This document shows positions 1,404 to 25,476 of a DNA stretch of 30,318 bases, piece by piece. Position 1 is the stretch's first letter. Each line of letters starts with the position of its first letter. The notes below the pieces were generated by a model. It saw nothing but the letters and a program-made list of their open reading frames with translations, did not search any database and was not told where the DNA came from. The position numbers and the translations under genes were made by a program. The DNA is from a virus: positions 1 through 30,318 of IMG/VR virus record IMGVR_UViG_3300021335_001807, one strand, 5' to 3'.

Positions 1404-2215
1404 TGTCCTTATCTGGAGGGATGGACTCCTCTACTTTATTACTTAGATGTTTATCTGAGTATGACAGTGTAACAGCTTTATCTTTTGATTATGGTCAAAA
1501 ACATAGAGTAGAACTTGAAAGAGCTCAATCATTAGTAGATTATATTAATGGGCTTGAAAACAAAGCAGCAGAAGATGGACAAAAAGCTCCATATAATCCT
1601 GTCAAATACCAAGTTATTAAATTAGATGGTTTAGTTAACTTGTTAGATTCTAACCTTGTAGAAGGTGGAGAAGATGTACCAGAAGGTCATTATGAAGAAG
1701 AAAATATGATAGCAACTGTTGTACCTAACAGAAATAAAATTTTCTCTTCATTGACTCAAGCAGTAGCATTATCTGTATCTAAAAGAACAGGAGAAGAATG
1801 TGATATTGCTTTAGGTATTCATGCTGGTGATCATGCAATTTATCCTGATTGTAGACAAGAATTTAGAGATGCTGATTACGAAGCTTTCAAAATTGGTAAT
1901 TGGGATGCTGATAAAGTAGGATTTTTTATACCTTATATTGATACTGATAAATTAGGAATTTTAAAAGATGGAGAAGTACTTGTTGATAAATTGGGTATTG
2001 AATTTGATGAAGTTTATAAAAGAACAAATACTTCTTATAAGCCATATCCTTCAGGAAATAGTGATTATAAGTCTGCTTCTAGTGTTGAGAGGATTGAGGC
2101 TTTTATTGCTCTGGGGAGAAAAGATCCTGTACAGTATGAGGATGAAACTGGAGAAGTTGATTACGAAGTAGCAAAATCTCATGTAGAAAAGCTACTAGCT
2201 GAATACTCAGCTTAA
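1385..2215 (+). CDS. queC: 7-cyano-7-deazaguanine (preQ0) synthase QueC, zinc cysteines lost
   Basis: QueC converts 7-carboxy-7-deazaguanine, ammonia and ATP to preQ0 in the cytoplasm. The PP-loop ATP site SGGMDSS is at residues 10-16. Further QueC-type blocks are VVPNRNKIF and IYPDCRQEF. The protein is 276 aa, longer than the usual 220-240, with extra sequence around residues 50-60 and 180-200. The C-terminal region aligns by eye with the family's zinc-binding loop and the RLEAF helix (here VERIEAF), but all four expected cysteines are replaced (Tyr, Asp and Ser present instead). Either the phage enzyme folds without structural zinc or this is a diverged PP-loop enzyme. Queuosine-pathway neighbours favour QueC. 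The ATG start overlaps the membrane-protein gene. Confidence 0.85.
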   Translation: MAKNVVVSLSGGMDSSTLLLRCLSEYDSVTALSFDYGQKHRVELERAQSLVDYINGLENKAAEDGQKAPYNPVKYQVIKLDGLVNLLDSNLVEGGEDVPEGHYEEENMIATVVPNRNKIFSSLTQAVALSVSKRTGEECDIALGIHAGDHAIYPDCRQEFRDADYEAFKIGNWDADKVGFFIPYIDTDKLGILKDGEVLVDKLGIEFDEVYKRTNTSYKPYPSGNSDYKSASSVERIEAFIALGRKDPVQYEDETGEVDYEVAKSHVEKLLAEYSA

Positions 2216-2508: not shown

Positions 2509-2756
2509 TGAAGAAAATCTTATATTTTAGTGCAGCATGGTGTGGTCCATGTCAAACATTAGGTCCTATTATGGAGTCTTTAAAAGGAGATATTAATTAT
2601 CAAAAAATTGATGTAGATAATAATCAAGATTTATCTATGCAATATGGGGTAAGAAATATTCCTACTTTAATTTTATTAGATGAAACTGGTGAAGTTAAAG
2701 GAAGAAAAGTAGGGTTACAAACAAAACAAGACATTTTAAATTTTTATAATGGGTAA
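2508..2756 (+). CDS. Thioredoxin
   Basis: 82 aa, a compact thioredoxin fold. The redox motif WCGPC is at residues 11-15 and the cis-proline region is NIPTL near residues 51-55. It starts directly at the first beta strand (MKKILYF), so the usual N-terminal helix and strand are missing and it is shorter than cellular thioredoxins (about 105 aa), as often seen in phage versions. It would reduce disulfides in the cytoplasm, for instance as an electron donor for ribonucleotide reductase or another phage enzyme. No reductase gene is in the window. Overlaps queD by 8 bases. Confidence 0.9.
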   Translation: MKKILYFSAAWCGPCQTLGPIMESLKGDINYQKIDVDNNQDLSMQYGVRNIPTLILLDETGEVKGRKVGLQTKQDILNFYNG

Positions 2757-3213
2757 ATTTCAATCTAGCAAAGTATTTGATGGTTTTTCTACAGTATTTC
2801 GTCAATGGAGAGCTACAACAACACACTGTAGATTTGTACATGGTTATGGTATTTCATTTAAAGTATATTTTGAGGGAGATTTAGATGATAGAAATTGGGT
2901 TTGGGATTTTGGTGGTATGAAAAGAGCAAAAACTAAAATCGATGGTAAATCTCCTAAGGAATGGATGGATTATATGTTTGATCATACTTTAGTAGTGGCG
3001 GAAGATGATCCAGAATTAAAAGCATTTCAACAAATGGATACAGCAGGAGTAGCTCAGGTAAGAGTAATCCCAGCTACGGGTGCAGAAAAATTTGCAGAAT
3101 TTATATTTAATAAAATTAATGAATTTGTTCAAACTGAAACTGAAAACAGAGTAAAAGTTGTTAAAGTTAAGTTTATGGAACATGGTAAAAACGCAGCTTA
3201 TTATGTCGCTTAA
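2749..3213 (+). CDS. queD: 6-carboxy-5,6,7,8-tetrahydropterin synthase (QueD family), variant active site
   Basis: QueD turns dihydroneopterin triphosphate into 6-carboxytetrahydropterin, the second step to preQ0. Family landmarks: the Cys and His of HCRFVHGY (residues 26-33), WVWDFGGMK (50-58), FDHTLVVAEDDP (77-88) with the catalytic His region, and GAEKFAEFI in place of the usual PTAENLA helix. In canonical QueD the metal is held by three His including an HGH pair. Here the second of the pair is Tyr (HGY) and no clear upstream His is seen. I recall HGYxxSF as a recurring variant in some bacterial and phage homologues, so activity is still plausible. 154 aa, slightly longer than the usual 120-140. 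Confidence 0.85.
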   Translation: MGKFQSSKVFDGFSTVFRQWRATTTHCRFVHGYGISFKVYFEGDLDDRNWVWDFGGMKRAKTKIDGKSPKEWMDYMFDHTLVVAEDDPELKAFQQMDTAGVAQVRVIPATGAEKFAEFIFNKINEFVQTETENRVKVVKVKFMEHGKNAAYYVA

Positions 3214-3979
3214 AAGAATTGAAGATTATAACAAAGTATTGCCTGTATTAGAACTTTATACAGCAGTACAATCAGAGGGTAGTAGGCAAGGCTACCCTAC
3301 TATTGTAGTTAGAACAACAGGTTGTACCCATAGATGTTATTTTGGAGAAGGGGGTTGGTGTGATTCTTGGTATACAAGTATCCACCCAGAAAAAGGTACT
3401 TTTTGTTTCCAAGATATAATTAATATGTACGATGCAAATCCTCATATTAAAGAAATGATGTTAACAGGAGGTTCTCCTACTATGCATCCTAAGTTAGTTA
3501 ACGAATTAACACATTTAGCTCATGAAAGGGATATTTTCATTACTATTGAAACTGAAGGATCTCATTTCCTTCCCACTGATTATCCTATCAATCTTCTTAG
3601 TATTTCTCCTAAATTTAGTAATAGCATCCCCGTTATTGGTGCTACTACTCCTCAGGGAGCGATTGTTGACGAAAGGATGGTTAAAAAACACAACTCAAAA
3701 AGAGTAAATATTGAAGCAATAAAACAATCTATTGATTATCATTCTGATTATCATATTAAACCTGTATTAGATAAAGAATTATCTATGGTAGGTGAAGTAG
3801 AAGATTTCCTTAAAGAATGTAACATACCAGATAGTAAAGTTTGGGCAATGCCTGCTGGGGATGATAGAGAATCATTAATGGAATCATATCCAACCGTTAT
3901 GAATTTTGTTAGAGATAGAGGATGGCGTTTTACAGGCCGTTCACATATCATGGCATTTAATACAGAAAGGTGTGTCTAG
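3203..3979 (+). CDS. queE: 7-carboxy-7-deazaguanine synthase QueE (radical SAM), atypical cluster loop
   Basis: QueE is the radical SAM enzyme that contracts 6-carboxytetrahydropterin to 7-carboxy-7-deazaguanine. Family signs: ELYTAVQSEGSRQGYPTIVVR near the N-terminus (cf. E.F.S.QGEG..G.p..FvR) and the cluster cysteines in TTGCTHRC at residues 38-45 with GWCDSW at 51-56. Spacing is C-x3-C-x7-C rather than C-x3-C-x2-C. TGGSP replaces the usual TGGEP, and SPKFS follows. The frame extends upstream inside queD, but ATG 3203 (MSLKRI) gives a 258-aa protein and a short overlap with queD, so it is preferred. It ends inside the next small gene. Confidence 0.87.
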   Translation: MSLKRIEDYNKVLPVLELYTAVQSEGSRQGYPTIVVRTTGCTHRCYFGEGGWCDSWYTSIHPEKGTFCFQDIINMYDANPHIKEMMLTGGSPTMHPKLVNELTHLAHERDIFITIETEGSHFLPTDYPINLLSISPKFSNSIPVIGATTPQGAIVDERMVKKHNSKRVNIEAIKQSIDYHSDYHIKPVLDKELSMVGEVEDFLKECNIPDSKVWAMPAGDDRESLMESYPTVMNFVRDRGWRFTGRSHIMAFNTERCV

Positions 3980-4106
3980 GGAAGAAGCTCTTAGTATATT
4001 AGAAGAAATAGAGGAAAATGTAACTACATGCTGTGCCATTACTATGGAGCCAGATGAAGTACTAGTATTAATAGATAAATTAAAAGAATATTTAAATGGA
4101 GAATAA
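3906..4106 (+). CDS. Small helical protein, unknown function (start uncertain)
   Basis: 66 aa if read from TTG 3906, which lies 74 bases inside queE; 44 aa if read from GTG 3972, which overlaps the queE stop by only 8 bases. The sequence HLIQKGVSREEALSILEEI looks like two amphipathic helices, and the part before GTG 3972 appears to belong to the same helix, slightly favouring the longer form. The end overlaps the folE start by 11 bases. The overlaps on both sides and the continuous frame support a real gene, but I do not recognise a family. Confidence 0.5.
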   Translation: MLEIEDGVLQAVHISWHLIQKGVSREEALSILEEIEENVTTCCAITMEPDEVLVLIDKLKEYLNGE

Positions 4107-4791
4107 ACGTAGAAAAAAACATGAGAATTTAGAGGTTGTACCAATTGGTTTTGCAAATGGAGTTGCACCTGGATTTCCATTCACCGATAAAGAAAAAGAA
4201 AAAATGATTAATAGAGCAGAAAAAGCTTATGGTAAGTTTTTAGATGCTCTAGAATGTGACTGGAGAAATGATCCTAATTCAATGGAAACCCCTAGACGAG
4301 TAGCTAAAGCTTATGTTAATGATTTATGGGCCGGCAGATATACAGCTATGTCTCCTATTACATCATTCCCATCAGATGGTTATGATGGTGTAATTATAGA
4401 ACGTAATATACCGTTAACTTCAATGTGTTCTCATCATCACCAAACAATAGGTGGAGTTGTACATATTGGTTACATTGCAGGAGAAGATGGTCAAGTAATT
4501 GGTTTATCTAAATTAAATAGAATTGTAGAATTATTTGGTCGTAGAGGAGCAATCCAAGAACAATTAACATCAGCTATCCATAATGCAGTAGATAAAATTA
4601 CCGAAGGTAATAAAGGTGTTATTGTAACTATTGTAGGTACTCATAACTGTGTATCTTGTAGAGGTGTAAAACATCAAGGAGCAGCAATGGTTACTACAAA
4701 AGCATCAGGAAAATTTAGAGATGATAATAATTTAGCTCGTAAAGAATTTTTTGATAGCTTAAAAATTAATAACGGAGGACACAATATTTAA
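4096..4791 (+). CDS. folE: GTP cyclohydrolase I
   Basis: FolE opens GTP to dihydroneopterin triphosphate, the entry step to the 7-deazaguanine pathway and also to folate. Signature blocks: TPRRVAKAY (65-73), TSMCSHHHQTIGG (108-120), IGLSKLNRIV (135-144), FGRRGAIQEQLT (147-158) and GTHNCVSCRGVKHQG (181-195). Zinc ligands Cys111, His114 and Cys185 are recognisable. 231 aa, close to the 190-225 aa usual for the family plus a basic N-terminal tail. In phages this gene commonly accompanies queC/D/E and feeds DNA modification. It completes the GTP-to-preQ0 set here. Confidence 0.95.
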   Translation: MENKRRKKHENLEVVPIGFANGVAPGFPFTDKEKEKMINRAEKAYGKFLDALECDWRNDPNSMETPRRVAKAYVNDLWAGRYTAMSPITSFPSDGYDGVIIERNIPLTSMCSHHHQTIGGVVHIGYIAGEDGQVIGLSKLNRIVELFGRRGAIQEQLTSAIHNAVDKITEGNKGVIVTIVGTHNCVSCRGVKHQGAAMVTTKASGKFRDDNNLARKEFFDSLKINNGGHNI

Positions 4792-4794
4792 GTT

Positions 4795-5340
4795 ATGTTA
4801 AAATTAGATAATAAAAAAATGTCAGTTAGTTGGTGGGATATGACTGATATTATAAAAGATTTAACTAAAAAAATTCCATTTGAAGTACCATTAGCTGATT
4901 CAATTTATGGAATACCTAGAGGTGGTTTAATTCCTGCAGTCATGTTATCACATTCAACAGGTTTACCTTTAGTACAAACAATAGGTAAAAATACCTTAGT
5001 AGTAGATGATATGACAGATAGTGGAGTTACTATGGATAAAATGCCTGGACAGTGGACAGCAGTTTTATTTCATAAACCTCATACTTCAATTTTTACCCCA
5101 AATGTATATTCTAAATTACATGAAGGAGATGAATGGTTAGTATTTCCTTGGGAAGATTTTAAGGCACCTGCTAAACAAGATTATTTACAATCAGATGAAT
5201 TTTTAGAATTTGCAGAAAGAGAAGATAATTCTGTGGTGTGGTCAGAAGAAGATAGTAAATTACATACTATAGGAGGTTTATCTAATGATAAAGATAAATC
5301 GTTTATAAAATTCATAAATAAATTAGATAAAAATGGGTAA
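4795..5340 (+). CDS. Purine-type phosphoribosyltransferase
   Basis: 181 aa with a type I PRTase fold. YGIPRGGLIPAVMLSH (38-53) matches the PPi-binding loop region of xanthine/hypoxanthine-guanine PRTases, and LVVDDMTDSGVTM (68-80) is the PRPP-binding motif (two acidic residues followed by TDSG). It would join a purine base and PRPP to give a nucleotide. The C-terminal third (about 120-181) is charged and not typical. Its position directly after folE suggests either guanine salvage into the GTP pool or handling of a 7-deazaguanine base. That link is inference only. Overlaps the next gene by 8 bases. Confidence 0.8.
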   Translation: MLKLDNKKMSVSWWDMTDIIKDLTKKIPFEVPLADSIYGIPRGGLIPAVMLSHSTGLPLVQTIGKNTLVVDDMTDSGVTMDKMPGQWTAVLFHKPHTSIFTPNVYSKLHEGDEWLVFPWEDFKAPAKQDYLQSDEFLEFAEREDNSVVWSEEDSKLHTIGGLSNDKDKSFIKFINKLDKNG

Positions 5341-5884
5341 ACAATTAGAATTTGCATACCAATGGGAAAAATTAAGAGACGTCCCATTTGTAAATGAAGT
5401 AGAAGAATTTAATGCCACATTTGGCAAACCAAACAATTATGAACCGACAATACCAGAAAAAAAAGAATGGCAATTCGTATACGACTTTGTACTTGAAGAA
5501 TTGGAAGAATATAGACAGGCTTGCGAAAACGGAAACATCGTGGAAGTTTTGGATGCTTTGTGCGACATTGCTTATGTTTCCCTCGGGAACGGTACTATGC
5601 TACATGGCCTTAAGGATAAGATATGGCCAGCGTATAAAGAGGTACAAGCCAGTAATATGTCGAAGTCTTGTAGCACTGAGAAAGAAGCCATGGAAACTGT
5701 CACCATCCGCTCTAAAGAACAAAATGAGCCATGTCACTATGAGAAAGTGGAGGAGAGATTTGTAGTATATAGAACTCGAGATAGAAAAGTAATGAAATCA
5801 ATTAATTATTTTAGACCTGATCTAACTCAGTTTTTTACAGGAGATGAATTACAAAGGTTTCACAATACAAGTGCAGGAATATAA
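5333..5884 (+). CDS. MazG-like NTP pyrophosphohydrolase with extra C-terminal domain
   Basis: 183 aa. Residues 45-80 carry the MazG/all-alpha NTP-PPase pattern: EELEEYRQA (55-63) and VLDALCDIAYV (72-82), giving the E-x-x-E...E/D-x-x-D metal site. It probably hydrolyses (d)NTPs to monophosphates plus PPi, for example to shape the nucleotide pool. Residues from about 115 on are an unassigned domain. Bases about 5405-5765 have a composition unlike the surroundings: hand counts give about 42-43 % G+C in two 60-base rows, against 17 % in the row just upstream. Codons such as TGC, CTC, GGG, CGC and AAC are common there. This suggests recent exchange with a relative of different codon use. Confidence 0.75.
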   Translation: MGKQLEFAYQWEKLRDVPFVNEVEEFNATFGKPNNYEPTIPEKKEWQFVYDFVLEELEEYRQACENGNIVEVLDALCDIAYVSLGNGTMLHGLKDKIWPAYKEVQASNMSKSCSTEKEAMETVTIRSKEQNEPCHYEKVEERFVVYRTRDRKVMKSINYFRPDLTQFFTGDELQRFHNTSAGI

Positions 5885-7587
5885 TGTATAAAAAGTGTTA
5901 TGCTACCAGATTAGGAAATAATAAGTATAAGATTCATTTATGGGACGAAGGTGGCTATGATGAAATCGAGTGGCATAATCCTGCTTATCAAGAATGTTCT
6001 AAAGAAGAGGCAACTTTTACTGGTTTAAGTGGAGAGCCTCTTCGAAAAATTTATAAATGGGATAAAAACACCCCCAACTTACATTTCCATGATATAACTC
6101 CGTATCAAAAATATCTTATTGAAAAATATGGTGTTGATGATAAACCTTCTACAGGTCATAAAGAATTATTTTTTGATATTGAGTGTGAAATTGGAGGAGC
6201 TTTAACTGAAGAATATATTGAAAGAGCCCCTATGCCTATTACTACAATAGCATACTGGGATAAATCAGAAGATCATTGGGTTATTTTAGTTCGTGATGAT
6301 AAAGGTGAATTAAAGCGTACTAAAGCTAAAAATAAAGAAATTGTACCTTGTAGAACAGAACAAGAAATATTAGCTAAATTTTTAGAACGTTTTAGAGAAA
6401 TTGATCCCGATATTTTAATTGGTTATAACAGTGATTTCTTTGATATACCTTATCTATATTATAGAATGTGTAATGTATTAGGTCAAGAATGGGCTGATCA
6501 ATTGTCTCCAATTGGTAAAGTAAATGCTAAAAAGAATAATCAATATTTTTTTAAACAAAACCAATTTGTAGATATTATTGGAGTTGAATCTTTAGACTAT
6601 ATGAGATTACATAAAAAATATAGTTGGAAAGACGAACCAAGTTGGAAATTAGATGCTATTGGAGAAAAATATACTGGAATAGGTAAAGTTGATTATGAAG
6701 GTAATCTTGATCAATTATTTGAAACAGACCTACAAAAATATATTCAGTATAACTTTCGTGATGTTGAAATATTAAAATTATTAGATGAAAAACTTCAATA
6801 TATTGCTTTAACTAAAAATCTATCTCATAAAGGAAAACATAACTATAGTGAGGTTTATGCAAATAGTAAAACTCAAGATGGTGCAATCTCAGCTTATTTA
6901 TTGTCCCAAAATATAATCCCACCAGGTAAGGATCCTAACCCTAGAAGTAAAAAAGGATACGCTGGTGGTTACCTTTTTTGCCCTAAAGCTGGATTGTACA
7001 AATATATGTTTGATGAAGATTTAACATCACTGTATCCATCTATAATTATGTCTTTAAACATAGGACGAGAAACATTCAAGGGACGTATCATTGATGCTGA
7101 TGATCGCAATAATAGATTGGGTCTTAATGATTTAAAAGAACGTGATCAAGATGAAGAATTATTAGTTGAAAATGCTAAAGGACAACAAACTAGAGTTAAT
7201 GTTGGAAGATTAATTTCTATGGTTGAACAAAATAATTTAACATTATCAGCTAATGGTTGTATGTTTACTACTGATAGGCAATCAACATTATCTACAGTAT
7301 TAGCTAAGTGGTTTGATGAACGTAAATTATATAAAGGCAAAATGAAGGATGCCTATAAATCAGGTAATAAAGAAAAGGGTGCTTATTACCATTTAATGCA
7401 ATATACAATGAAGATTTTGCTTAATAGTTTATATGGTGCTACAGCATTACCTTCGTTTAGATATGGGATGAGTTTATCTATACTAAGCGAAGCCATTACT
7501 CTATCAGGCCACAGAATTATTCAAGAATCAGCTTTATGTGCTAATAGACATATGAATAAAGTTTTAAGAGGAGAATTAACATTATGA
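5884..7587 (+). CDS. 43A: DNA polymerase PolB, N-terminal subunit of a split gp43
   Basis: 567 aa holding the 3'-5' exonuclease and most of the polymerase domain of a T4-type PolB enzyme. Exo I is FDIECE (97-102), Exo II GYNSDFFDIPY (180-190) and Exo III YNFRDVEIL (289-297). Polymerase motif A is DLTSLYPSIIMS (379-390) and motif B is the KILLNSLYG region (510-518). Motif C (YxDTDS) is absent and the frame stops at 7587, shortly after the fingers helix region. The missing part is encoded at 8586-9542. No catalytic residue is lost from the pair, so the two chains probably assemble into one enzyme, as reported for gp43A/gp43B of Aeromonas phage 44RR. The start overlaps MazG by one base. Confidence 0.93.
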   Translation: MYKKCYATRLGNNKYKIHLWDEGGYDEIEWHNPAYQECSKEEATFTGLSGEPLRKIYKWDKNTPNLHFHDITPYQKYLIEKYGVDDKPSTGHKELFFDIECEIGGALTEEYIERAPMPITTIAYWDKSEDHWVILVRDDKGELKRTKAKNKEIVPCRTEQEILAKFLERFREIDPDILIGYNSDFFDIPYLYYRMCNVLGQEWADQLSPIGKVNAKKNNQYFFKQNQFVDIIGVESLDYMRLHKKYSWKDEPSWKLDAIGEKYTGIGKVDYEGNLDQLFETDLQKYIQYNFRDVEILKLLDEKLQYIALTKNLSHKGKHNYSEVYANSKTQDGAISAYLLSQNIIPPGKDPNPRSKKGYAGGYLFCPKAGLYKYMFDEDLTSLYPSIIMSLNIGRETFKGRIIDADDRNNRLGLNDLKERDQDEELLVENAKGQQTRVNVGRLISMVEQNNLTLSANGCMFTTDRQSTLSTVLAKWFDERKLYKGKMKDAYKSGNKEKGAYYHLMQYTMKILLNSLYGATALPSFRYGMSLSILSEAITLSGHRIIQESALCANRHMNKVLRGELTL

Positions 7588-8202: not shown

Positions 8203-8589
8203 ATGAAAATAGAAGTATCAAACGGAGAGTTATTAGACAAAATTTCAATTTTAGAATTAAAATTACTTAAAATTGAAGATGAAGATAAATTAGTTAATAT
8301 TAGGAAAGAATTTGAAACATTAAATCCTTTAGCTAAAAAATTATTTGAAACATTTGGAGGTAATTTACAAAATCATTATCTTGAACTAGCTCGTATAAAT
8401 GGGTTATTATGGGATATTGAAGATTGGATTAGAGATTGTGAGCGTGAAAAAAGGTTTGATGAAGAATTTATTCAATTAGCAAGATCTGTTTATGTTACTA
8501 ATGATCAAAGAAGTGAAGTTAAAAAACTTATTAATAAAACAACTGGATCAGATTTGGTAGAAGAAAAATCATATAAAGATTACAAGTGA
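8203..8589 (+). CDS. DUF6165-like protein
   Basis: 128 aa, almost entirely helical. The N-terminus MKIEVSNGELLDKISILELK resembles, from memory, the DUF6165 family, found near glycosyltransferase genes in bacteria and marine phages, whose function is not known to me. The rest (LFETFGGNLQNHYLELARIN, WDIEDWIRDCERE) fits the same family shape. Together with the neighbouring mannose-type cupin it hints that the insert between the polymerase halves is glycan-related cargo. The end overlaps the second polymerase cistron as GTGA. Confidence 0.6.
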   Translation: MKIEVSNGELLDKISILELKLLKIEDEDKLVNIRKEFETLNPLAKKLFETFGGNLQNHYLELARINGLLWDIEDWIRDCEREKRFDEEFIQLARSVYVTNDQRSEVKKLINKTTGSDLVEEKSYKDYK

Positions 8590-9542
8590 AACATTTAGAA
8601 GAAACACCTTGGTTTATTTGCGATAAAGAAGATGAGAATTATTGTGCTTATGTAGACACTGATTCTAATTATTTTAATGCTGAACCCATATTAAAATATT
8701 TGTACCCTGATTTTGAATCATTCTCAGATGAAGAAAAAGATGAAAAATTAGAAGGTGTGGCTTTAGCATATCAAGATATTATTACTGAACATTATGATAA
8801 TTTAGCTACTGATTGTTTTAATGTTAAACAGTTTGAATGGTTTGATAAACCACATTGGCTTGAAATGAAGACTGAATGTGTAATAAGATCAGCCTATTTT
8901 AGAGCAACAAGGCGATATGCACAATGGATTACTAAACAAGAGGGCATTGCTAAAGAAACTTTAGATATTAAAGGTTTAGAGTTTATGAAAGCAAATTTTC
9001 CCCCAATATTAGGGGATTTCTTTAATGATATTCTTCAACAGGTTCTAAAAGGAGAACAACATAAAAGCATTATAGAACAAATTAAAATATTTAAAACACA
9101 AATTTTAGATGGCACTATTCCTTTAGCTAAATTAGGTAATCCTACTGCTGTTAAAAAACTAGATAAATATAGTGGTAAAAGTGCCCGTGCAGGTGAAATG
9201 TTTACTGAAATTTTAAAAGGTGCTCCTGCACCTGTAAGAGCAGCTATTCGTTATAATGATTTACTTAGGTTATGGCAATTAGATAGAAAATATAATCTAA
9301 TTACAATGGCAGATAAAGTAAAATGGATTTATTTAAAAGATAATCCTTATAAAATAGAAGCATTAGCATTTTTTGATTATGAAATGCCAGAAAAAATAGT
9401 TGATTTTTTAGATACTTATGCTGATAGACAGAAAGTATTTGATTCAATATTATTAAATAAATTAGAAGGGTTTTTTAGTGACTTAGGTTGGTCTCTTAAT
9501 TTAAATCCCTATGTAAATGCTTTAAAAAGTTTTGAAATATGA
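8586..9542 (+). CDS. 43B: DNA polymerase PolB, C-terminal subunit of a split gp43
   Basis: 318 aa. Motif C AYVDTDSNYF is at residues 21-30, with the two catalytic aspartates at 24 and 26. The palm end and thumb follow (KTECVIRSAYFRATRRYAQW, and KLDKYSGKSARAGEMF). It contains none of motifs A or B, so it cannot polymerise alone and must pair with the product of 5884-7587. The junction corresponds to the loop before GDTDS in T4 gp43, so the whole protein is accounted for. The start is GTG at 8586, inside the overlap GTGA with the preceding gene; a start in the coupled position fits the dense layout. The sliding clamp gene follows after one tiny gene. Confidence 0.93.
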   Translation: MKHLEETPWFICDKEDENYCAYVDTDSNYFNAEPILKYLYPDFESFSDEEKDEKLEGVALAYQDIITEHYDNLATDCFNVKQFEWFDKPHWLEMKTECVIRSAYFRATRRYAQWITKQEGIAKETLDIKGLEFMKANFPPILGDFFNDILQQVLKGEQHKSIIEQIKIFKTQILDGTIPLAKLGNPTAVKKLDKYSGKSARAGEMFTEILKGAPAPVRAAIRYNDLLRLWQLDRKYNLITMADKVKWIYLKDNPYKIEALAFFDYEMPEKIVDFLDTYADRQKVFDSILLNKLEGFFSDLGWSLNLNPYVNALKSFEI

Positions 9543-10905: not shown

Positions 10906-11328
10906 ATGAGTACATTAGAAATCTTTGAAAGGCAGATTAGTCCTTTCGACATTTTATTTAGAAATCTTTTTAACGCTGAGTCGCAATTCGCACCAGCATT
11001 ACAATCAAAACAACCACATCCCGTTAATATCTTTTATGATGATAAAGGACTTCATTTTGAAGTTGCCTGTACAGGACTAACTAAAAAAGAAGTTGATATC
11101 AACATTGAAGGGGATATTTTGAAAATCTCTTATAAAAAACCCGAAGCTGAAGAATTTCATGAGGGTACAATTTATAATGGGTTATCAAAAAAATCATTTA
11201 ATTTAGGATATAAGATAGCTCCTAAATTTGATTTAAGTGAAGCAACTGCTGAATTGGCAAATGGGCTTTTAGTCATTTTTATTCCAATTGCTGAAGAAGC
11301 TAAACCAAAGTCTATCAAAATTAAGTAA
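10906..11328 (+). CDS. Small heat-shock protein (Hsp20/alpha-crystallin)
   Basis: 140 aa. The alpha-crystallin domain spans about residues 38-130: VNIFYDDKGLHFEVACTGL, VDINIEGDILKISYK and the late strand NGLLVIFIPIAEEAKPKSIK. The C-terminal IKIK gives an IxI-like motif used by sHsps for oligomer assembly. It would bind unfolding proteins and hand them on. Standing in the same region as phage groES and groEL it suggests a phage-encoded folding kit for virion or replisome proteins. It lies between two non-coding gaps, so it may be a single-gene transcript. The first 100 or so bases are richer in C than the surrounding genes. Confidence 0.9.
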   Translation: MSTLEIFERQISPFDILFRNLFNAESQFAPALQSKQPHPVNIFYDDKGLHFEVACTGLTKKEVDINIEGDILKISYKKPEAEEFHEGTIYNGLSKKSFNLGYKIAPKFDLSEATAELANGLLVIFIPIAEEAKPKSIKIK

Positions 11329-11344
11329 TAAGTTTTATTAAAAT

Positions 11345-11367
11345 ATGTGTCCTAGCACATTGTTTTT
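11345..11367 (+). terminator. Weak hairpin plus T-run after hsp20
   Basis: ATGTG (11345-11349) pairs with CACAT (11356-11360) around the loop TCCTAG, followed by TGTTTTT. It lies 16 bases after the hsp20 stop. The stem is only 5 bp and AT-rich, so this is a weak terminator candidate. The T-run is also the beginning of the TTTTTCGTATATT motif at 11363. Confidence 0.35.
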
Positions 11368-11375
11368 CGTATATT
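11363..11375 (+). promoter_or_regulatory. TTTTTCGTATATT motif before the groES/groEL unit
   Basis: Second copy of the recurring motif, 23 bases upstream of the ATG at 11399. This spacing would allow a normal leader if TATATT is a -10 box. It probably drives the 107-aa gene, groES and groEL. The downstream context CACGTTA matches the copy at 9698. Confidence 0.55.
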
Positions 11376-11398
11376 CACGTTACAAATAAATAAGTTAT

Positions 11399-11722
11399 AT
11401 GTCAGATACTAAGCGTAGAAAATCAATACAAATTATTACAGATCCATTATTAGAACCTTTCTTTATTACTAAAGATGAATATAGCTATACTGTTAAACAA
11501 AATGTTAAATCAGATAGTTCCCATTTTAGAAGTAAAGGAAAATCTAAAACCTATGAAAAATCATTATACTATTACCCCCAATTTGATCAAGCTATAAATA
11601 AAATAGCAGAATTAAAATCACAGTTTGGTGACTATAATAGTATAAAAAATTATTTAGAAGATTATAAAAAAATTAGTAACCAAATAAAAAAATACACAAA
11701 TGGAATTAGAAGCGTTATTTGA
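11399..11722 (+). CDS. Phage protein of unknown function upstream of groES
   Basis: 107 aa, basic and Tyr/Lys-rich. The stretches LEPFFITKDEYSYTV, HFRSKGKSKTYEKSLYYYPQ and a C-terminal helix (INKIAELK...IKNYLEDYKKIS) recall small hypothetical proteins of marine T4-like phages, but I cannot name a function. The start ATG is at the end of AATAAATAAGTTATATG. The last 23 bases overlap groES, so it is translationally coupled to the chaperonin genes. Confidence 0.7.
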   Translation: MSDTKRRKSIQIITDPLLEPFFITKDEYSYTVKQNVKSDSSHFRSKGKSKTYEKSLYYYPQFDQAINKIAELKSQFGDYNSIKNYLEDYKKISNQIKKYTNGIRSVI

Positions 11723-12068
11723 TGCTGTTATAGTTAAACCTAAAGAAACAGAAGAAACTACTTATGGTAACATTATTGTTCCTGATATAGGTAAGGAAAA
11801 AAATGAAATAGGTAAGGTTATAGCAGTAGGTCCGGGAAAACCAACAATTACAGGAGAATTTATCCCAACACAATTAAAAATAGGAGATGAAGTAGTTTTA
11901 CCTACTATGGGATTTACCAGATTACCTTATAACGGAGAAGAATATTACGTGGGTCCCGAAAATCAAATTCTTGCTAAAATTAGTCAAAAAGTTGACGTAG
12001 CAGAAATATTAGAAGAAACTAAAGAGTCATTAACTGAAGAAGAAATTAAAGATTTATCAAATGAGTAA
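11700..12068 (+). CDS. groS: Co-chaperonin GroES
   Basis: 122 aa. GroES-type features: LFDAVIVKPKETEETTYGNI, whose second half is the mobile loop that contacts GroEL; GKVIAVGPGK; LKIGDEVVLP; and YYVGPENQILAKI, close to the family C-terminal pattern. The usual length is about 97 aa; here an acidic C-terminal tail of roughly 20 residues (LEETKESLTEEEIKDLSNE) is added. It caps the GroEL chamber. T4 carries only a GroES substitute (gp31); here the partner groEL follows with an 8-base overlap. Confidence 0.9.
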   Translation: MELEALFDAVIVKPKETEETTYGNIIVPDIGKEKNEIGKVIAVGPGKPTITGEFIPTQLKIGDEVVLPTMGFTRLPYNGEEYYVGPENQILAKISQKVDVAEILEETKESLTEEEIKDLSNE

Positions 12069-13680
12069 ACAAGTTATATTAGGTTCAGAAGCAAGAACCA
12101 ATTTAGTAGAGGGAATTGATATATTAGCAGATGCTGTTGTATCAACATTAGGACCTAATGGTAGAAATGTAGTAATTGCTAATAATGGATTTCCACAATC
12201 TACAAAAGATGGAGTTACTGTTGCCAAATCCATAACTCTAAAAGACCCTAATCAAGAATTAGGAGTTCAATTAGTAAAACAAGCTGCGATTAAGACAGCT
12301 GAAAAAGCAGGTGATGGTACTACTACATCTACTTTATTAGCTAGAGAAATGATTAAAGCAGGATTAACAGCCTTAAATAATAACGAAAACGCAGTTCAAA
12401 TTAAAAGGGATATTGATTCTACAGTTAAAGAAATAGTCAATAATCTTAAAAATAACATATCAGAAGATATTTCTGGAGAAGAACAACTAGAACAGATTGC
12501 ATCAATATCAGCAAATAATGACCCAGAAACTGGAAAATTAATTGCTACAGCAATTGAAAAAGTTGGAATGGAAGGGGTTGTCCATATTGAAGAATCTCGC
12601 ACAGGTGAAACTTACCTTGAAACTGTTGAAGGGTTACAGTTTGGTAGAGGGTATAAATCACCATATTTTGTTACAAATAATAGTAATATGACTGCCACAT
12701 TGGACAACCCCTTAATTCTAATTGCGGATCAAAAAATAACTCAAGTAAAAGAATTATTACCAATTTTAGAAGCAGTTGGGGCACAAGCAAAATCACTTTT
12801 AATTATTGCTGAGGATATTGATAATGAAGCATTAGCTACCCTTATTGTTAATAAAATGAGAGGCACAATGAAAGTATGTGCTGTAAAAGCTCCTGACTTT
12901 GGTGATAGGAGAAAATTAGTATTAGAGGATATAGCTATTACAACTGGAGGAGTAGTATTTGACAAACAAAAAGGTATGAAACTTGATAAATTTAGTTGGG
13001 AATGGTTTGGAGAAGCGAGAACAGTAACAGTAGAAAAAGAACAAACAACAATAGTAGATGGAAAAGGATCAGTTGAATCAATTGAAACACGTGTTGAAGA
13101 ACTACAGCAACAAATCGACAAGGCAACAACGCCGTTCGAAGTCGAAAAACTCCAAGAAAGGTTGGCGAAATTCGTCGGAGGAGTAGCTATTATTCATGTA
13201 GGAGGAAACACTGAAACTGAAATGAAGGAGAAAAAAGACAGAGTTGATGATGCTTTACATGCAACAAAAGCAGCTATAGAAGAGGGTATTGTCCCAGGAG
13301 GGGGAACAGCATTATTATATGCCTCTAATGGTTTAAAAGCTAATACAACAGGAGCTCAAATTGTAGTAGAAGCATGTGCTAAACCTTTTAATCAAATTTT
13401 AGTTAATGCTGGATATGATAAAGTAAAAGGACAAATATTAGCTGATCAATTATGTAATTCTGGTAATGATGCTTGGGCAGGTTATAATATTAAAACTGAT
13501 GAAATAGTTAATATGAAAGAATCTGGAATTATTGATCCTACTAAGGTGGCTAGGACAGCCCTTGAAAATGCTGCTTCTGTAGCGGGCACTGTTTTACTAA
13601 CTGAATGTACAGTAGTTGATGACCCAGAAGAAGAATCTCAACAACCACAAATTGATCCATCAATGATGGGGATGATGTAA
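12061..13680 (+). CDS. groL: Chaperonin GroEL
   Basis: 539 aa, full length (E. coli 548). TLGPNGRNV (29-37), TKDGVTVAK (48-56) and the ATP-site AGDGTTTST (83-91) are intact. VEEGIVPGGG-type and VAGTVLLTE blocks are present near the C-terminus. The C-terminal tail is short (DPSMMGMM) instead of repeated GGM. With GroES it would form a complete phage chaperonin, perhaps to fold viral proteins the host machine handles poorly. Bases about 13085-13190 have unusually high G+C for this genome (about 43 % by hand count in one row), with TCG, GCG, ACG and CTC codons. Confidence 0.97.
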   Translation: MSKQVILGSEARTNLVEGIDILADAVVSTLGPNGRNVVIANNGFPQSTKDGVTVAKSITLKDPNQELGVQLVKQAAIKTAEKAGDGTTTSTLLAREMIKAGLTALNNNENAVQIKRDIDSTVKEIVNNLKNNISEDISGEEQLEQIASISANNDPETGKLIATAIEKVGMEGVVHIEESRTGETYLETVEGLQFGRGYKSPYFVTNNSNMTATLDNPLILIADQKITQVKELLPILEAVGAQAKSLLIIAEDIDNEALATLIVNKMRGTMKVCAVKAPDFGDRRKLVLEDIAITTGGVVFDKQKGMKLDKFSWEWFGEARTVTVEKEQTTIVDGKGSVESIETRVEELQQQIDKATTPFEVEKLQERLAKFVGGVAIIHVGGNTETEMKEKKDRVDDALHATKAAIEEGIVPGGGTALLYASNGLKANTTGAQIVVEACAKPFNQILVNAGYDKVKGQILADQLCNSGNDAWAGYNIKTDEIVNMKESGIIDPTKVARTALENAASVAGTVLLTECTVVDDPEEESQQPQIDPSMMGMM

Positions 13681-17389: not shown

Positions 17390-18829
17390 ATGAATAAAAG
17401 TTTTAAATACCTTCCTCAAGATAAGAGGAAAAAAATACTATTAATCTGTGATGATATTAGAGTACACTCAGGTGTTGCCACAATAGCAAAAGAAATAGTA
17501 ACCCATACAGCTCACCATTTTAATTGGGTACAAATGGCGGGGGCAATAAACCACCCAGATAAAGGAAAAAAATTAGATTTATCTTCAGATACTAATAAAG
17601 TAGCTGATATAGAGGATTCTTTTGTAAGACTTTATCCCGTTGATGGTTATGGTAATCCAACAATTTTAAGGCAAGTCATATCATTTGAAAAACCAGATGC
17701 TATAATGCTTTTTACTGATCCAAGATACTTTACATGGGTATTTAATATGGAGCATGAAATAAGAAAACAAATCCCTATTGCCTATTTAAATATTTGGGAT
17801 GATTATCCTGCTCCAATGTATAATAAACCCTATTATGAAGCTTGTGATTTGTTAATGGGTATATCAAAACAAACAGTTAATATAAATAAACTAGTACTTA
17901 ATGATAAAAAAGATAGTAAAATTTTTAAGTATATTCCTCATGGAAAAAACCCAAAAATATATTATCCAATTGTAGAGGAAAATAAAGATTACTTAGAATT
18001 TAGAAATAAAGTATTTGGTAATGCAAAACCAGAATTTGTTGTATACTTTAATTCTAGAAATATACGAAGAAAACAAATACCAGATACAATGTTAGCTTTT
18101 AGGGCATTTTTAGATTCTTTACCTAAGGAAAAATCAAAAAATTGTTTTCTTTTATTAAAAACAGAACTAGTTACGGATGCAGGAACTGATTTACCAAGAG
18201 TAAAAGAATATTTCTTTGGAGAAGAGTATGATAATAATGTTAAATTTATAGAGTCTAAATTAGAGGAAAAACATTTAAATTATCTATATAATATAGCAGA
18301 TGTTCAAATTTTACTAACCTCAAATGAAGGTTGGGGATTAACAATTACTGAAGCAATACTATCAGGTACTCCTATTATAGCAAATACTACAGGTGGTATG
18401 CAAGATCAAATGAGGTTTGTTGATGAGAATGGAGAATGGTTTACTCCTAGTGCTGATATACCTTCTAATCATAGAGGAACATATAAAGAACATGGAGAAT
18501 GGGCTTTCCCAGTTTATCCAACTAGTAGATCAATTCAAGGTTCTCCCCCAACTCCATATATTTACGATGATAGATGTAAATGGGAAGATGCTTTAGAACG
18601 AATTAAAGAAGTCTATAATTTAAGTTCTGAAGAACGTAGAACTAAAGGGTTAAAAGGAAGAGAATGGGCCCTAAGTGAGGAAGCAGGTTTTACATCTGAA
18701 CATCAAGGAAAAAGAGTTATAGAAGCATTTGATGAATTATTTGATACTTGGAAACCAAGAGAAAAGTATGAAATAGTAAGTGCTAATGAATATAAAGGAA
18801 AAAATTTAAATCATAAATTATTTTATTAA
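17390..18829 (+). CDS. Glycosyltransferase, GT4-like
   Basis: 479 aa, two Rossmann halves (GT-B). The N-terminal part has KKILLICDDIRVHSGVATIA (14-33), with the SG(V) loop near the first strand. In the C-terminal half, EEKHLNYLYNIADVQILLTS leads to NEGWGLTITEAILSGTPIIA, which is the GT4 donor-binding E-x7-E signature. It would move a sugar from a nucleotide-sugar donor to a glycan or protein acceptor in the cytoplasm. It is the first enzyme of the glycan block and overlaps the next glycosyltransferase by one base (TAATG). The donor sugar cannot be inferred. Confidence 0.85.
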   Translation: MNKSFKYLPQDKRKKILLICDDIRVHSGVATIAKEIVTHTAHHFNWVQMAGAINHPDKGKKLDLSSDTNKVADIEDSFVRLYPVDGYGNPTILRQVISFEKPDAIMLFTDPRYFTWVFNMEHEIRKQIPIAYLNIWDDYPAPMYNKPYYEACDLLMGISKQTVNINKLVLNDKKDSKIFKYIPHGKNPKIYYPIVEENKDYLEFRNKVFGNAKPEFVVYFNSRNIRRKQIPDTMLAFRAFLDSLPKEKSKNCFLLLKTELVTDAGTDLPRVKEYFFGEEYDNNVKFIESKLEEKHLNYLYNIADVQILLTSNEGWGLTITEAILSGTPIIANTTGGMQDQMRFVDENGEWFTPSADIPSNHRGTYKEHGEWAFPVYPTSRSIQGSPPTPYIYDDRCKWEDALERIKEVYNLSSEERRTKGLKGREWALSEEAGFTSEHQGKRVIEAFDELFDTWKPREKYEIVSANEYKGKNLNHKLFY

Positions 18830-20124
18830 TGAGTAAGCCAAGATTTGTAATAAGTTGCCCTTTTGACACATATTCAGGATATGGAGGACGTAGTCGTGAT
18901 ATAGTTAAGGCAATAATAGAATTAGATAAATATGAAGTACAACTTTTACCTCAAAAATGGGGGGAAACTTCCTGGGGATTCTGCAATGATCACCCTGAAT
19001 GGAAATTTCTAAATAAATATGTAGCCCCACAAAACTGGCAACAAACTAAACCAGATTTATGGATGCAAATAACTATACCAAATGAATTCCAACCTATAGG
19101 AAAATATAATATAGGATTAACTGCTGGTATTGAAGCAACAGGATGCAAACCTGAATGGATTGAAGGATTAAATAGAATGGATATAAATTGGGTATCTTCT
19201 AATTTTGCAAAACAAACTTTTGAATCTATGTCTTTTGAAAAAAAAGATCAAAGAACTAACCAAACAGTGAGTATACTTAAATTAGAAAAGCCTATTGAAG
19301 TTATATTTGAAGGAGCAGATTTGACTACTTATAAACCCATATCTCCCAAAGAAATTAAAACTATTAAACTTGATGAAGTTAAAGAAAGTTTTGCTTTTCT
19401 ATTTGTAGGACATTGGATGCAAGGTGAATTTGGTCATGATAGAAAAAATGTAGGTGTATTAATTAAATCTTTTTATGAAGCATTCAAAAACAAATCAGGC
19501 CAAAAACCAGCACTAATATTAAAATGTTCTACAGGTGTAGCTTCTTATATGAGTAGGGATTCTATTTTAGATAGAATAAAACAAATTAGAACGTTAGTTA
19601 ATTCTTCAAATCTACCTAATATCTATATTTTAAATGGAGAATTTAATGATTCAGAAATGAATGAATTATATAACCACCCAAAAGTAAAAGCAATGGTTAG
19701 TGCTACTAAAGGAGAGGGATTTGGTAGACCTTTACTAGAATTTAGTTTAACAGGAAAACCTATTATAGCTTCGGGGTGGTCAGGACATACAGACTTTCTT
19801 AATCCTGAATATGTAGCTTTAGTCCCTGGTTCTTTAGAAAAAGTACATAAAAGTGCTGCAAATAATTGGTTAATAGAACAGGCACAATGGTTTAAAATTA
19901 ATGAATCTGACTTAAGGAAATCTTTTAAATCTTGTTTTAAAAAATATAAACAATTCCACCAAAAATCTAAAAGGCAAAAATATTATGCTAAAGAAAATTT
20001 TAGTTGGGAAGAAATGAAAAAATTGGTAGGAAAGATTTTATCATCTAATGTCCCAGATTTCCCAAAACAAGTAGAATTAAATTTACCTAAATTAAATTTA
20101 CCTAAATTACAAAAACTAAAATAA
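18829..20124 (+). CDS. Glycosyltransferase, GT4-like (second)
   Basis: 431 aa. An N-terminal segment, FVISCPFDTYSGYGGRSRDI (5-24), contains a glycine-rich acceptor-side loop. The C-terminal KGEGFGRPLLEFSLTGKPII is the donor-binding signature; a WSGHTDFL motif follows. The protein resembles its upstream neighbour in fold order but not in detail, so it is not an evident tandem duplicate. The C-terminus ends in two copies of the pentapeptide LNLPK from a 15-base tandem repeat (see 20077-20106). It shares one base with the neighbour on each side. Confidence 0.8.
   Translation: MSKPRFVISCPFDTYSGYGGRSRDIVKAIIELDKYEVQLLPQKWGETSWGFCNDHPEWKFLNKYVAPQNWQQTKPDLWMQITIPNEFQPIGKYNIGLTAGIEATGCKPEWIEGLNRMDINWVSSNFAKQTFESMSFEKKDQRTNQTVSILKLEKPIEVIFEGADLTTYKPISPKEIKTIKLDEVKESFAFLFVGHWMQGEFGHDRKNVGVLIKSFYEAFKNKSGQKPALILKCSTGVASYMSRDSILDRIKQIRTLVNSSNLPNIYILNGEFNDSEMNELYNHPKVKAMVSATKGEGFGRPLLEFSLTGKPIIASGWSGHTDFLNPEYVALVPGSLEKVHKSAANNWLIEQAQWFKINESDLRKSFKSCFKKYKQFHQKSKRQKYYAKENFSWEEMKKLVGKILSSNVPDFPKQVELNLPKLNLPKLQKLK
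20077..20106 (+). repeat. Two tandem copies of a 15-base unit
   Basis: TTAAATTTACCTAAA occurs twice in direct succession (20077-20091 and 20092-20106) near the 3' end of the second GT4 gene and keeps the frame, adding a second LNLPK to the protein tail. It probably arose by slippage and would be a length-variable site. Confidence 0.8.
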
Positions 20125-20564
20125 TGAATTTTGATGAATTAAAAATATGCAGCAGATGTGGTTCTGATGCATGCTACAGCCAGGAAGTTACTAAAGATAT
20201 TACAATTGAAATGTGCTATGGATGTGGCTTCCAATCCAATTCCCTGATGGAAAAAGGATCAGAATTTTTTAATGAACAATGGGAGACATTACCTGAAATT
20301 TATAAAGTTTTAATGGATGAAGAAGAAGAAACTGGTAAAATTTGGATGCCTTCTACTATTAATATTAAAGATAAGGGAATGGTGTTTGCAACAGGAAAAG
20401 ATAGAGATAATTGGGCATGGGGAGCTGTAAAAGTAACTAAAGTCAAAAAGAAAGATAGAGATAAATATAATAAAGAAAAATATAGAGCAGATATGACAAC
20501 CATCAAATATTTTAAAGAACGGGATTATATGGACGCTTTATCATATATTAATGTAATACCTTAA
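20124..20564 (+). CDS. Zinc-ribbon phage protein, unknown function
   Basis: 146 aa. CSRC at 9-12 and CYGC at 31-34 form a four-cysteine zinc ribbon near the N-terminus. The rest contains WMPSTINIKDKGMVFATGKD and DNWAWGAVKVTKV, a beta-rich part, then a lysine-rich helix. It starts one base inside the previous stop. Not an obvious enzyme. It may be a conserved phage protein unrelated to glycans that happens to lie within the block. Confidence 0.65.
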   Translation: MNFDELKICSRCGSDACYSQEVTKDITIEMCYGCGFQSNSLMEKGSEFFNEQWETLPEIYKVLMDEEEETGKIWMPSTINIKDKGMVFATGKDRDNWAWGAVKVTKVKKKDRDKYNKEKYRADMTTIKYFKERDYMDALSYINVIP

Positions 20565-20567
20565 AAA

Positions 20568-21446
20568 ATGAAAATACTAGTAACAGGAGGTGCGGGTTTT
20601 ATAGGCACCAATTTAATTAAAAGATTATTATCAGAAAACCATGAAGTTACATCACTTGATGATTATTCTATTGGTGTAAAAGAAAATCATATAGAAGGAT
20701 GTAATTATATAGAAGGTGATATAAATAAAATACTAGATCTTTTTGTATTAGAAACTTATGTTGAAGAATATAATTTTGATCTTATATATCATCTTGCTGC
20801 ACTTTCAAGAATACAACCTTCATTTGATGAACCTACTACAACATTTGATGCTAATGTTATGGGTACTCAAAATGTTATTGAATTTGCTAGAAAATCTAAT
20901 GTTAAAGTAGTGTATGCAGGTTCATCTTCAAGATGGTGTGATCCTCACTCTTCACCATATGCTGCTTATAAACATTTAGGAGAAGAAGTTTGTAAATTAT
21001 ATAGAAAGACTTACAAAATGGATATAGAAATAGCTAGATTTTATAATGTTTATGGTCCTAAGGAAGTATTAGAAGGTGATTGGGCTGCAGTTGTTGGAAA
21101 ATGGAGACGTCAAGTTAGAGATGGTGAGTTAATTACTATTGTTGGTGATGGTGAACAAAGAAGAGACTTTACTCATGTAGATGATATTTGTGATGCATTA
21201 TGGAGAATAGGAATAAATAATGTTAAACATGAAGACGCTTGGGAATTAGGAACAGGGATGAATTATTCTATAAATGAAGTTTACCAAATGTTTAAAGAAA
21301 GATTTGGTGCAGGATTTACTCATATCCCTGATCAACCTGGTAATTATAGAAAAACACTAAGAAAAAATAATGATACCTTAGAAAAATTAGGATGGGCTCC
21401 TAGTGATAAATTAAGAGATTATATTTTTAGTCTAGATAAAGGTTAA
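20568..21446 (+). CDS. NAD-dependent sugar-nucleotide epimerase/dehydratase (extended SDR)
   Basis: 292 aa. NAD-binding GGAGFIG (7-13) is preceded by MKILVT. YHLAALSRIQPSF (74-86) is the second family block. YAGSSSRW (116-123) supplies the catalytic Ser/Thr region and YAAYK (131-135) is the YxxxK motif. RFYNVYGP and RDFTHVDDI-type blocks complete the extended SDR fold. It interconverts an NDP-sugar (epimerase or 4,6-dehydratase-type), giving donor sugars to the surrounding glycosyltransferases. The exact substrate is not determinable by eye. 3 bases separate it from each neighbour. Confidence 0.88.
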   Translation: MKILVTGGAGFIGTNLIKRLLSENHEVTSLDDYSIGVKENHIEGCNYIEGDINKILDLFVLETYVEEYNFDLIYHLAALSRIQPSFDEPTTTFDANVMGTQNVIEFARKSNVKVVYAGSSSRWCDPHSSPYAAYKHLGEEVCKLYRKTYKMDIEIARFYNVYGPKEVLEGDWAAVVGKWRRQVRDGELITIVGDGEQRRDFTHVDDICDALWRIGINNVKHEDAWELGTGMNYSINEVYQMFKERFGAGFTHIPDQPGNYRKTLRKNNDTLEKLGWAPSDKLRDYIFSLDKG

Positions 21447-21448
21447 AT

Positions 21449-22072
21449 ATGAAAATAAGTTATGCAATTACTGTTTGTAATGAAAAATTAGAAGTAAAAC
21501 GTTTAATTGATTTTTTATTAGCTAATAAACGCAAACAGGATGAAATTATTGTACTTTTTGACCAAAAAAATGGTGAGGAAAAAGTAATTAATATGCTTAC
21601 TAAACTAAATAAGTTACCAAATTTTCAAGTATGGAGAGGTAATTTTGAAAATCATTTTGCTAATTGGAAAAATAAATTAACTGAATATTGTAATGGGGAT
21701 TATATATTTCAAATTGATGCTGATGAAATCCCTAATAAAACATTAATTCAACATCTACCAGAAATTATAAATTCAAATGAAAAAGTAGATGTAATGTTAG
21801 TTCCACGGGTTAACACAGTAGAAGGTTTGACTCAAGAGCATATTCAAAAATGGGGTTGGAATGTAGATGATAAAGGTTGGGTAAATTGGCCTGATTACCA
21901 ATGGAGAATTTGGAAAAACATCCCAGAAATTAAATGGAAAAATAAAGTACATGAAGTACTAAAAGGATTTAGCCATTACTCAGTTTTACCTTCATCAGAA
22001 CAATATTGTTTATATCACCCAAAACAAATAGAGAGACAAGAAAAACAAAATGCTTATTACGATACGTTATAA
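21449..22072 (+). CDS. Glycosyltransferase, GT2-like
   Basis: 207 aa. It begins with SYAITVCNE, typical of the GT-A fold, and has the DxD-type metal site IDADEIP (residues about 91-97). The C-terminal stretch WPDYQWRIWKNIPEIKWKNK and HEVLKGF is what many GT2 family members show (reading W-R-I-x-K and VHE). Its substrate is unknown. The stop overlaps the next start by one base (TAATG). It is shorter than many GT2 proteins (about 250-300 aa) but no frame break is visible. Confidence 0.78.
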   Translation: MKISYAITVCNEKLEVKRLIDFLLANKRKQDEIIVLFDQKNGEEKVINMLTKLNKLPNFQVWRGNFENHFANWKNKLTEYCNGDYIFQIDADEIPNKTLIQHLPEIINSNEKVDVMLVPRVNTVEGLTQEHIQKWGWNVDDKGWVNWPDYQWRIWKNIPEIKWKNKVHEVLKGFSHYSVLPSSEQYCLYHPKQIERQEKQNAYYDTL

Positions 22073-22656
22073 TGGGACAACATAATTTTTCAGAAAAAGT
22101 TATAGTAGAATTATTTAGAAGAGAACCAATTGATATTTGGATAAACTCATTTGGGGGGTGTAGGTCAAATTTCGTTAGAGATTGTATAAAAAATAAGTAT
22201 ACTACTTACAATTCTTCTTATGAAATGAAAGCTTGTCATTATATAAGACCTTTAGATGTAAAAGTAGGTAGTGGTATTTTTTGCTATACTGAAGATGTTG
22301 GGATTGCTTTATCATCCCAAATAAAAAGAGATATGTATCATAATTTTCAAAAATTAATGAAAGGAAGTAAAGAGGTCCCCTTTAGTATTGAAACATGGTT
22401 AAATAATATTAGTATACAAATTGATAATTGGACGACTCCATCATATTTTCCAATAGTAGTAATCAATACAGATAAACTAGAAGAAAACTCAGATTTATTT
22501 GAAGAAGTATATGGGGTAAAATTTGGGGAATTTAAACAAAGAAGTACAGTTGAATATGATCCTAGTTTGACTCCTTATTTATCCTTAGTAAAAGAAATTA
22601 ATCAAAAATTAAAAAAACTACCAAATTTTTCAGTAGTTAATAATATACTAAAATGA
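22072..22656 (+). CDS. Sulfotransferase-like protein, P-loop variant
   Basis: 194 aa from the ATG at 22072; the frame extends upstream, but the earlier Met lies inside the previous gene and is unlikely. IDIWINSFGGCRSNFVRD (20-37) resembles the 5'-phosphosulfate binding loop of PAPS-dependent sulfotransferases (strand, then G-x-x-x-S-x-x-F). VVINTDKLEENSDLFEEVYG near the end is also consistent. I would rate the sulfotransferase reading as plausible only; a nucleotide-binding protein of another kind is possible. The next gene, another sulfotransferase-like, overlaps by 4 bases. Confidence 0.5.
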   Translation: MGQHNFSEKVIVELFRREPIDIWINSFGGCRSNFVRDCIKNKYTTYNSSYEMKACHYIRPLDVKVGSGIFCYTEDVGIALSSQIKRDMYHNFQKLMKGSKEVPFSIETWLNNISIQIDNWTTPSYFPIVVINTDKLEENSDLFEEVYGVKFGEFKQRSTVEYDPSLTPYLSLVKEINQKLKKLPNFSVVNNILK

Positions 22657-23941: not shown

Positions 23942-23942
23942 T

Positions 23943-25452: not shown

Positions 25453-25476
25453 TGTTTTATTAAAAAATATAAAAAT

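Follow-up and report, generated by a model that had tools for sequence, protein, structure and literature searches.

The newest survey of the QueC family (PMC13329287) counts a four-cysteine (Cys4) zinc site among the two motifs that serve as its hallmarks. Can a member that lacks this site still do the work of QueC? The question is raised by a viral stretch of DNA of 30,318 nucleotides (IMG/VR record IMGVR_UViG_3300021335_001807; hereafter, the window), in which a queC-like gene was originally predicted to have lost all four zinc-ligand cysteines and, consequently, either to have a metal-free fold or to do something other than preQ0 synthesis. We consider it likely that the encoded protein is a QueC-family enzyme from a naturally zinc-site-less lineage, with a metal-free fold and unchanged chemistry, making preQ0.

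The protein and the register of its former zinc loop

The features on which the discussion draws are the following, with positions given in the window.

186–992, + strand: DpdA-type DNA guanine transglycosylase (37% identity to an immuto protein annotated DpdA; model matches DpdA 7ui4)
1385–2215, + strand: queC gene, zinc-site-less variant, 276 aa (PF06508; phrog_1550; AF2 model; 3bl5)
1412–1429, + strand: SGGMDS, ATP pyrophosphatase loop, residues 10–15 (matches SGGxDS of PMC13329287)
1490–1513, + strand: YGQKHRVE, the YxQxHxxE motif, residues 36–43 (motif defined in PMC13329287)
1721–1735, + strand: VPNRN, the VPxRN motif, residues 113–117 (alignment; motif from PMC13329287)
1841–1852, + strand: YPDC substrate motif, residues 153–156, holding the only conserved Cys (alignment)
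2024–2104, + strand: remodelled former zinc loop TNTSYKPYPSGNSDYKSASSVERIEAF, residues 214–240 (register from Cys-bearing relatives; most conserved 27-codon segment)
2033–2035, + strand: former ligand S217 (register from Cys-bearing relatives)
2036–2038, + strand: catalytic-type Tyr Y218 (same register)
2063–2065, + strand: former ligand D227 (same register)
2072–2074, + strand: former ligand S230 (same register)
2081–2083, + strand: former ligand S233 (same register)
2749–3213, + strand: queD (PF01242, phrog_2389)
3203–3979, + strand: queE, radical SAM (phrog_2076, E 3e-48)
4096–4791, + strand: folE, GTP cyclohydrolase I (PF01227, 145 bits)

The frame at 1385–2215 is open throughout, without a frameshift, as had been claimed. 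Its product of 276 residues belongs to PF06508 (121.5 bits versus a Pfam gathering cut-off of 22, the whole domain being covered) and to the phage family phrog_1550. The QueC equivalog of NCBIfam, TIGR00364, gives 113.1 bits and thus stays below the curated cut-off of 150.3, as do zinc-less cellular relatives (120–137 bits) and even a related Bacteroidales QueC that has kept its cysteines (L282, 141 bits). With queD, queE, and folE at 2749–4791, the gene linkage of canonical QueC is present, and the protein, a PF06508 superfamily member, very probably works like QueC.

Aligned with E. coli QueC and with L282, whose loop TNTCYSPTQTGAACGKCGSCQERLEAF sets the register, the window protein has S217, D227, S230, and S233 where the zinc ligands would be. 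All four ligands are indeed missing, replaced by three Ser and one Asp and not by the “Ser, Asp and Tyr” first read. The region proposed for the change (2017–2090) was the right one, albeit with an end that falls slightly short of that of the loop. Lacking the zinc-binding motif C(x)8CxxCxxC of canonical QueC, the protein is classed as a zinc-site-less variant. Nor have the cysteines moved elsewhere: only C156 in the YPDC motif is conserved among the three Cys of the window protein, and in one relative (L076) it is the sole Cys, which rules displacement out.

The catalytic motifs, on the other hand, are retained. All four by which canonical QueC (Cluster 1) is recognized (SGGxDS, YxQxHxxE, VPxRN, and YPDC) are found in the window protein; the first of them, the PP-loop that was described as intact, is invariant except for M13 across 63 aligned relatives. 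The Tyr following the first zinc Cys is also present as Y218, the counterpart of E. coli Y189, and is invariant in 63 relatives. This residue is essential, its loss having abolished the activity of E. coli QueC (PMC13329287, a 2026 survey).

Several other genes accompany queC. A tRNA-Gln gene (anticodon TTG) lies directly downstream at 2224–2297, and the preQ0 operon includes a phosphoribosyltransferase-like gene (4795–5340) whose immuto counterpart sits between QueE and FolE. Farther on, a family B DNA polymerase is apparently split into an ORF with the exonuclease and the N-terminal part of the polymerase domain (5884–7587) and one with the YVDTDS motif and the C-terminal part (8586–9542), about 1 kb apart with three small ORFs between them. 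The window also encodes Hsp20, GroES (Cpn10), and a full-length GroEL (10906–13680), the latter two being present in immuto as well, and a run of ORFs at 17390–26517 that by eye resemble glycosyltransferases, an epimerase, and a methyltransferase.

Conservation and predicted fold of the loop

A scan of viral contigs returned at least 599 related stretches, the best 80 of which were examined and 78 could be scored. The zinc motif is missing in all 78, nearly all of them sharing the loop TNTSYKP(Y/F)PSGNSDYKSASSVER(I/V)EAF. The uniqueness that had been implied for this phage enzyme is therefore mistaken, as the loop is zinc-less in many viral and cellular relatives. Across 69 distinct viral genes, residues 214–240 form the most conserved 27-codon segment of the gene (the lowest of 249), with a nonsynonymous fraction of codon differences of 0.019 versus 0.382 for the gene as a whole. 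At five Ser positions, both TCN and AGY codons are used while the residue stays Ser. One could still suspect that the gene has decayed and is inactive, or that the change is an artefact of sequencing; the missing motif itself is all that speaks for this. With an open frame and the gene’s highest conservation in precisely this loop, we give that idea virtually no chance; the near identity of the loop among viral relatives and the codon conservation refute decay, frameshift, and artefact alike.

The AF2 model of the protein has a mean pLDDT of 92.5, the loop itself reaching 92–93. Its nearest solved folds are those of QueC (3bl5) and Cap9 (9nto), both at Z 18.9, and it matches 2pg3 as well. Since Cap9 is as close as QueC, a role comparable to Cap9 or QatC of anti-phage systems, in which CDG is attached to a protein, deserves mention. 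We regard it as very improbable: both proteins keep their Cys motifs (PMC13329287), and the neighbors here are FolE, QueD, QueE, and DpdA. The loop, being free of Cys, carries neither the CE(x)6CxxCxxCxD motif of Cap9 (type IV CBASS) nor the C(x)19CGxCxxRR zinc motif that defines QatC together with the lack of VPxRN and YPDC (PMC13329287), both of which the window protein has. A PADLOC scan matched its generic QueC model only, and a Cap9 or QatC role, unsupported by it, was rejected.

Of the two outcomes originally foreseen, a metal-free fold is well supported and favored, the loop being confidently modelled, extremely conserved, and left without any Cys to bind zinc. Instead of a Cys4-zinc knot, the fixed Ser and Asp side chains would hold the loop, most likely through a hydrogen-bond network, and so keep the essential Y218 in place. 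Alternatively, the Ser/Asp cluster could bind a different metal (e.g., Mg) at the old zinc site, in line with the fact that most zinc-less sequences keep at least one Asp or Asn where the ligands used to be. A site made of three hydroxyls and a single carboxylate would be weak, however, and the Asp position varies by lineage, some sequences carrying Thr, His, Asn, or Ala there; another metal is thus distinctly unlikely. Zinc sparing of the whole pathway is an unlikely cause of the loss too, as FolE of the same operon keeps its CSHHH...CVSC segments, which bear the zinc ligands in the known family.

Zinc-less QueC in archaea, bacteria, and phages

Zinc-less QueC is not confined to viruses. Among the best 80 genome matches, 79 were scored and 78 proved zinc-less. 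They come from Poseidoniales (MGII), Pirellulaceae, Cysteiniphilum, Facilibium, and a bacterium of the Thiotrichales, along with a few short MAG contigs that carry phage-type sequences; three gammaproteobacteria are among the organisms with a zinc-less loop. Many cellular QueC proteins with this type of Ser/Asp loop thus exist, and their normal activity, which would speak against an altered function, is suggested by what their genomes encode. We searched 18 genomes in full (17 zinc-less and the Cys-bearing Bacteroidales), mostly incomplete assemblies in which absences are soft. Each holds exactly one full-length QueC match, the remainder being fragments around the ATP loop, and in 17 of them the only full-length QueC is the zinc-less protein. 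QueF (over the cut-off) and QueA are encoded by all nine bacteria in this set, TGT by eight of the nine, and arcTGT by six of the eight archaea (14 of 17 for the two together), whereas QueD is found in all 17, no more than 1.3 kb from queC in 11.

Sampling within two groups gave a consistent picture. In Poseidoniales, 28 of 30 genomes have a full-length QueC, which is zinc-less in all 28. In Pirellulaceae, 24 of the 29 genomes scored have a Cys-bearing QueC and five a zinc-less one, and in none of the zinc-less genomes sampled, mostly incomplete assemblies, was a second, Cys-bearing copy found. The two forms appear mutually exclusive in this family, which, together with the retention of QueF, TGT, and QueA, is the pattern of an isofunctional replacement. 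Annotation rules that demand the zinc motif or the NCBI cut-off would overlook what is apparently the QueC of an entire order of archaea from the sea. Two observations stand beside these counts. Zinc-less QueC is fused in one frame to a domain of methionine sulfoxide reductase, MsrB (SelR), at L227:7971–9083, L225:8001–9131, and about 40 further Poseidoniales loci, and a Pirellulaceae genome (L425) has the loop TLTCYEPDERGRSTGRTGSDVERILAF, in which a single zinc Cys, the first, is kept, possibly an intermediate.

What would the phage use the enzyme for? We propose that the neighboring FolE, QueD, and QueE make 7-carboxy-7-deazaguanine, which the zinc-less QueC, with its ATP and substrate motifs intact, would convert to preQ0 in two ATP-dependent steps. 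The neighboring DpdA would then swap guanine in the phage DNA for the base made, so that the phage probably produces preQ0 for its own DNA. The model of the ORF at 186–992 has DpdA 7ui4 as its best Foldseek match (E 2.8e-5), followed by TGT, and its TGT-like fold and relation to an annotated phage DpdA place it with DpdA; PF01702 was not matched in a sequence profile search. DpdA is present in all 20 longer viral contigs with zinc-less QueC, and many further loci have DpdA, a formyltransferase-like gene, and QueF immediately upstream of QueC. In nine of the 20 contigs QueF exceeds the cut-off; its motif there, SNCRVTNQPDWG, has the Cys/Asp spacing of the nitrile reductase catalytic pair. Three loci that pair with QueF (L008, L029, and L068) have this loop letter for letter. 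Since QueF reduces the nitrile product of QueC, its pairing with an identical loop points to the nitrile being made.

QueF follows the subtype of DpdA, however. It is over the cut-off in nine of 11 contigs with a more distant DpdA (<205 bits) and in none of the nine, among the same 20, with a window-like DpdA; for the window’s own subtype we therefore infer nitrile production from relatives only. This leaves room for another reading, in which the remodelled loop of window-type phages lets the reaction go no further than the amide, ADG, or yields another 7-substituted 7-deazaguanine that DpdA inserts into DNA. Besides the missing QueF, it draws on the 36% identity between the window’s DpdA and that of the Campylobacter phages CP220 and CPt10, in which all dG is reported to be present as dADG (PMC8306585). 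The QueC of a Campylobacter phage from that same group keeps its zinc Cys, though, so that ADG is not tied to Cys loss, and zinc loss was rejected as a marker of dADG. Moreover, the identical loop is found in phages with QueF, and a zinc-less protein is the sole QueC of cells that have QueF. Altogether, we find the ADG reading unlikely. Were it true, the zinc-free loop would alter the output of QueC, the DNA of the window’s subgroup would carry ADG or an undescribed 7-deazaguanine, and guanine might be fully replaced, as reported for the Campylobacter phages.

The preferred reading remains that of preQ0 synthesis. A different function, as the original prediction allowed, is unsupported, considering that the zinc-less protein is the sole full-length QueC in bacteria with QueF and QueA and that QueF-encoding phages have the same loop; it is unlikely for the window’s subgroup as well. 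Critically speaking, hosts that have a QueC of their own could be an alternative source of preQ0 for the phages, which counts against this reading. As far as the sequences tell, the proteins of this large and strongly conserved zinc-less branch, which occurs in marine phages, archaea, and bacteria, very probably yield the usual product of QueC, and zinc, although treated as a hallmark of the family, seems dispensable.

A second lineage and comparison with known systems

With the columns of the loop left out of the alignment, the tree, which by itself gives no direction, separates two zinc-less sets. Type A comprises the viral, gammaproteobacterial, Planctomycetes, and MGII proteins, with the Cys-bearing L282 at its unresolved base; type B consists of phage proteins and has the Cys-bearing L125 inside it. 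Cys-bearing proteins part the two sets, and four state changes are needed on the tree. With a surrounding state that is Cys-bearing, the second phage branch appears to have lost its cysteines separately, while the place of L125 calls for a regained site, for recombination, or for repeated loss within type B. The type B loci (L097–L132) are relatives of the QueC of Rhizobium phage RHEph04. Zinc-less QueC did not turn up in the literature that we searched, an absence that is no proof, and the variant may have been described before. A 2023 study by Cui et al. in NAR reportedly names DpdL, DpdN, DpdM, dDG, dCDG, and fdPreQ1.

Canonical QueC (Cluster 1; E. coli and B. subtilis 3bl5) resembles the window protein in fold, ATP loop, YxQxHxxE, VPxRN, YPDC, essential Tyr, and gene context (queD, queE, and folE). 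The window protein differs by the missing C(x)8CxxCxxC motif, a longer C-terminal tail (276 versus 231 aa), and a score below the NCBI cut-off. One close counterpart is the QueC of the Flavobacterium phages immuto (MW353175–MW353177), which is of the same zinc-less lineage, with 67% identity and a shared SDYKSASSVER core. The immuto genome holds the same pathway set as the window (QueD, QueE, FolE, and DpdA, located elsewhere in it), but its QueC has a longer loop before the core, and QueF and a formyltransferase are encoded as well; its record is annotated plainly as QueC and leaves the missing zinc site unmentioned. In Poseidoniales and some Pirellulaceae, the zinc-less QueC has the same Cys-free loop type, TSYxP...SDVERIxAF, but the Asp occupies ligand position four (S,S,S,D), whereas in the window protein it occupies position two (S,D,S,S). 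Type B proteins (Rhizobium, Achromobacter, and Pseudomonas phages RHEph04, ART, and Iggy) also lack the four Cys and keep the Tyr after the first, but theirs is a different loop, T(A/S)YDGxYPPTGxDHAxxLRA, on a separate branch. Their four ligand positions are mostly filled, in order, by Ala or Ser, Thr, Asp/Asn, and Ser/Asn. Together, the lineage found in phages, archaea, and bacteria and the second phage lineage offer natural proteins for probing the role of zinc in nitrile synthesis.

A similar loss is found in the Cys-less (C-) paralogues of zinc-ribbon ribosomal proteins, which have lost a Cys4 zinc knot and kept their role. A genome with a C- paralogue often has the zinc form as well, whereas the zinc-less and Cys-bearing forms of QueC appear to be mutually exclusive.
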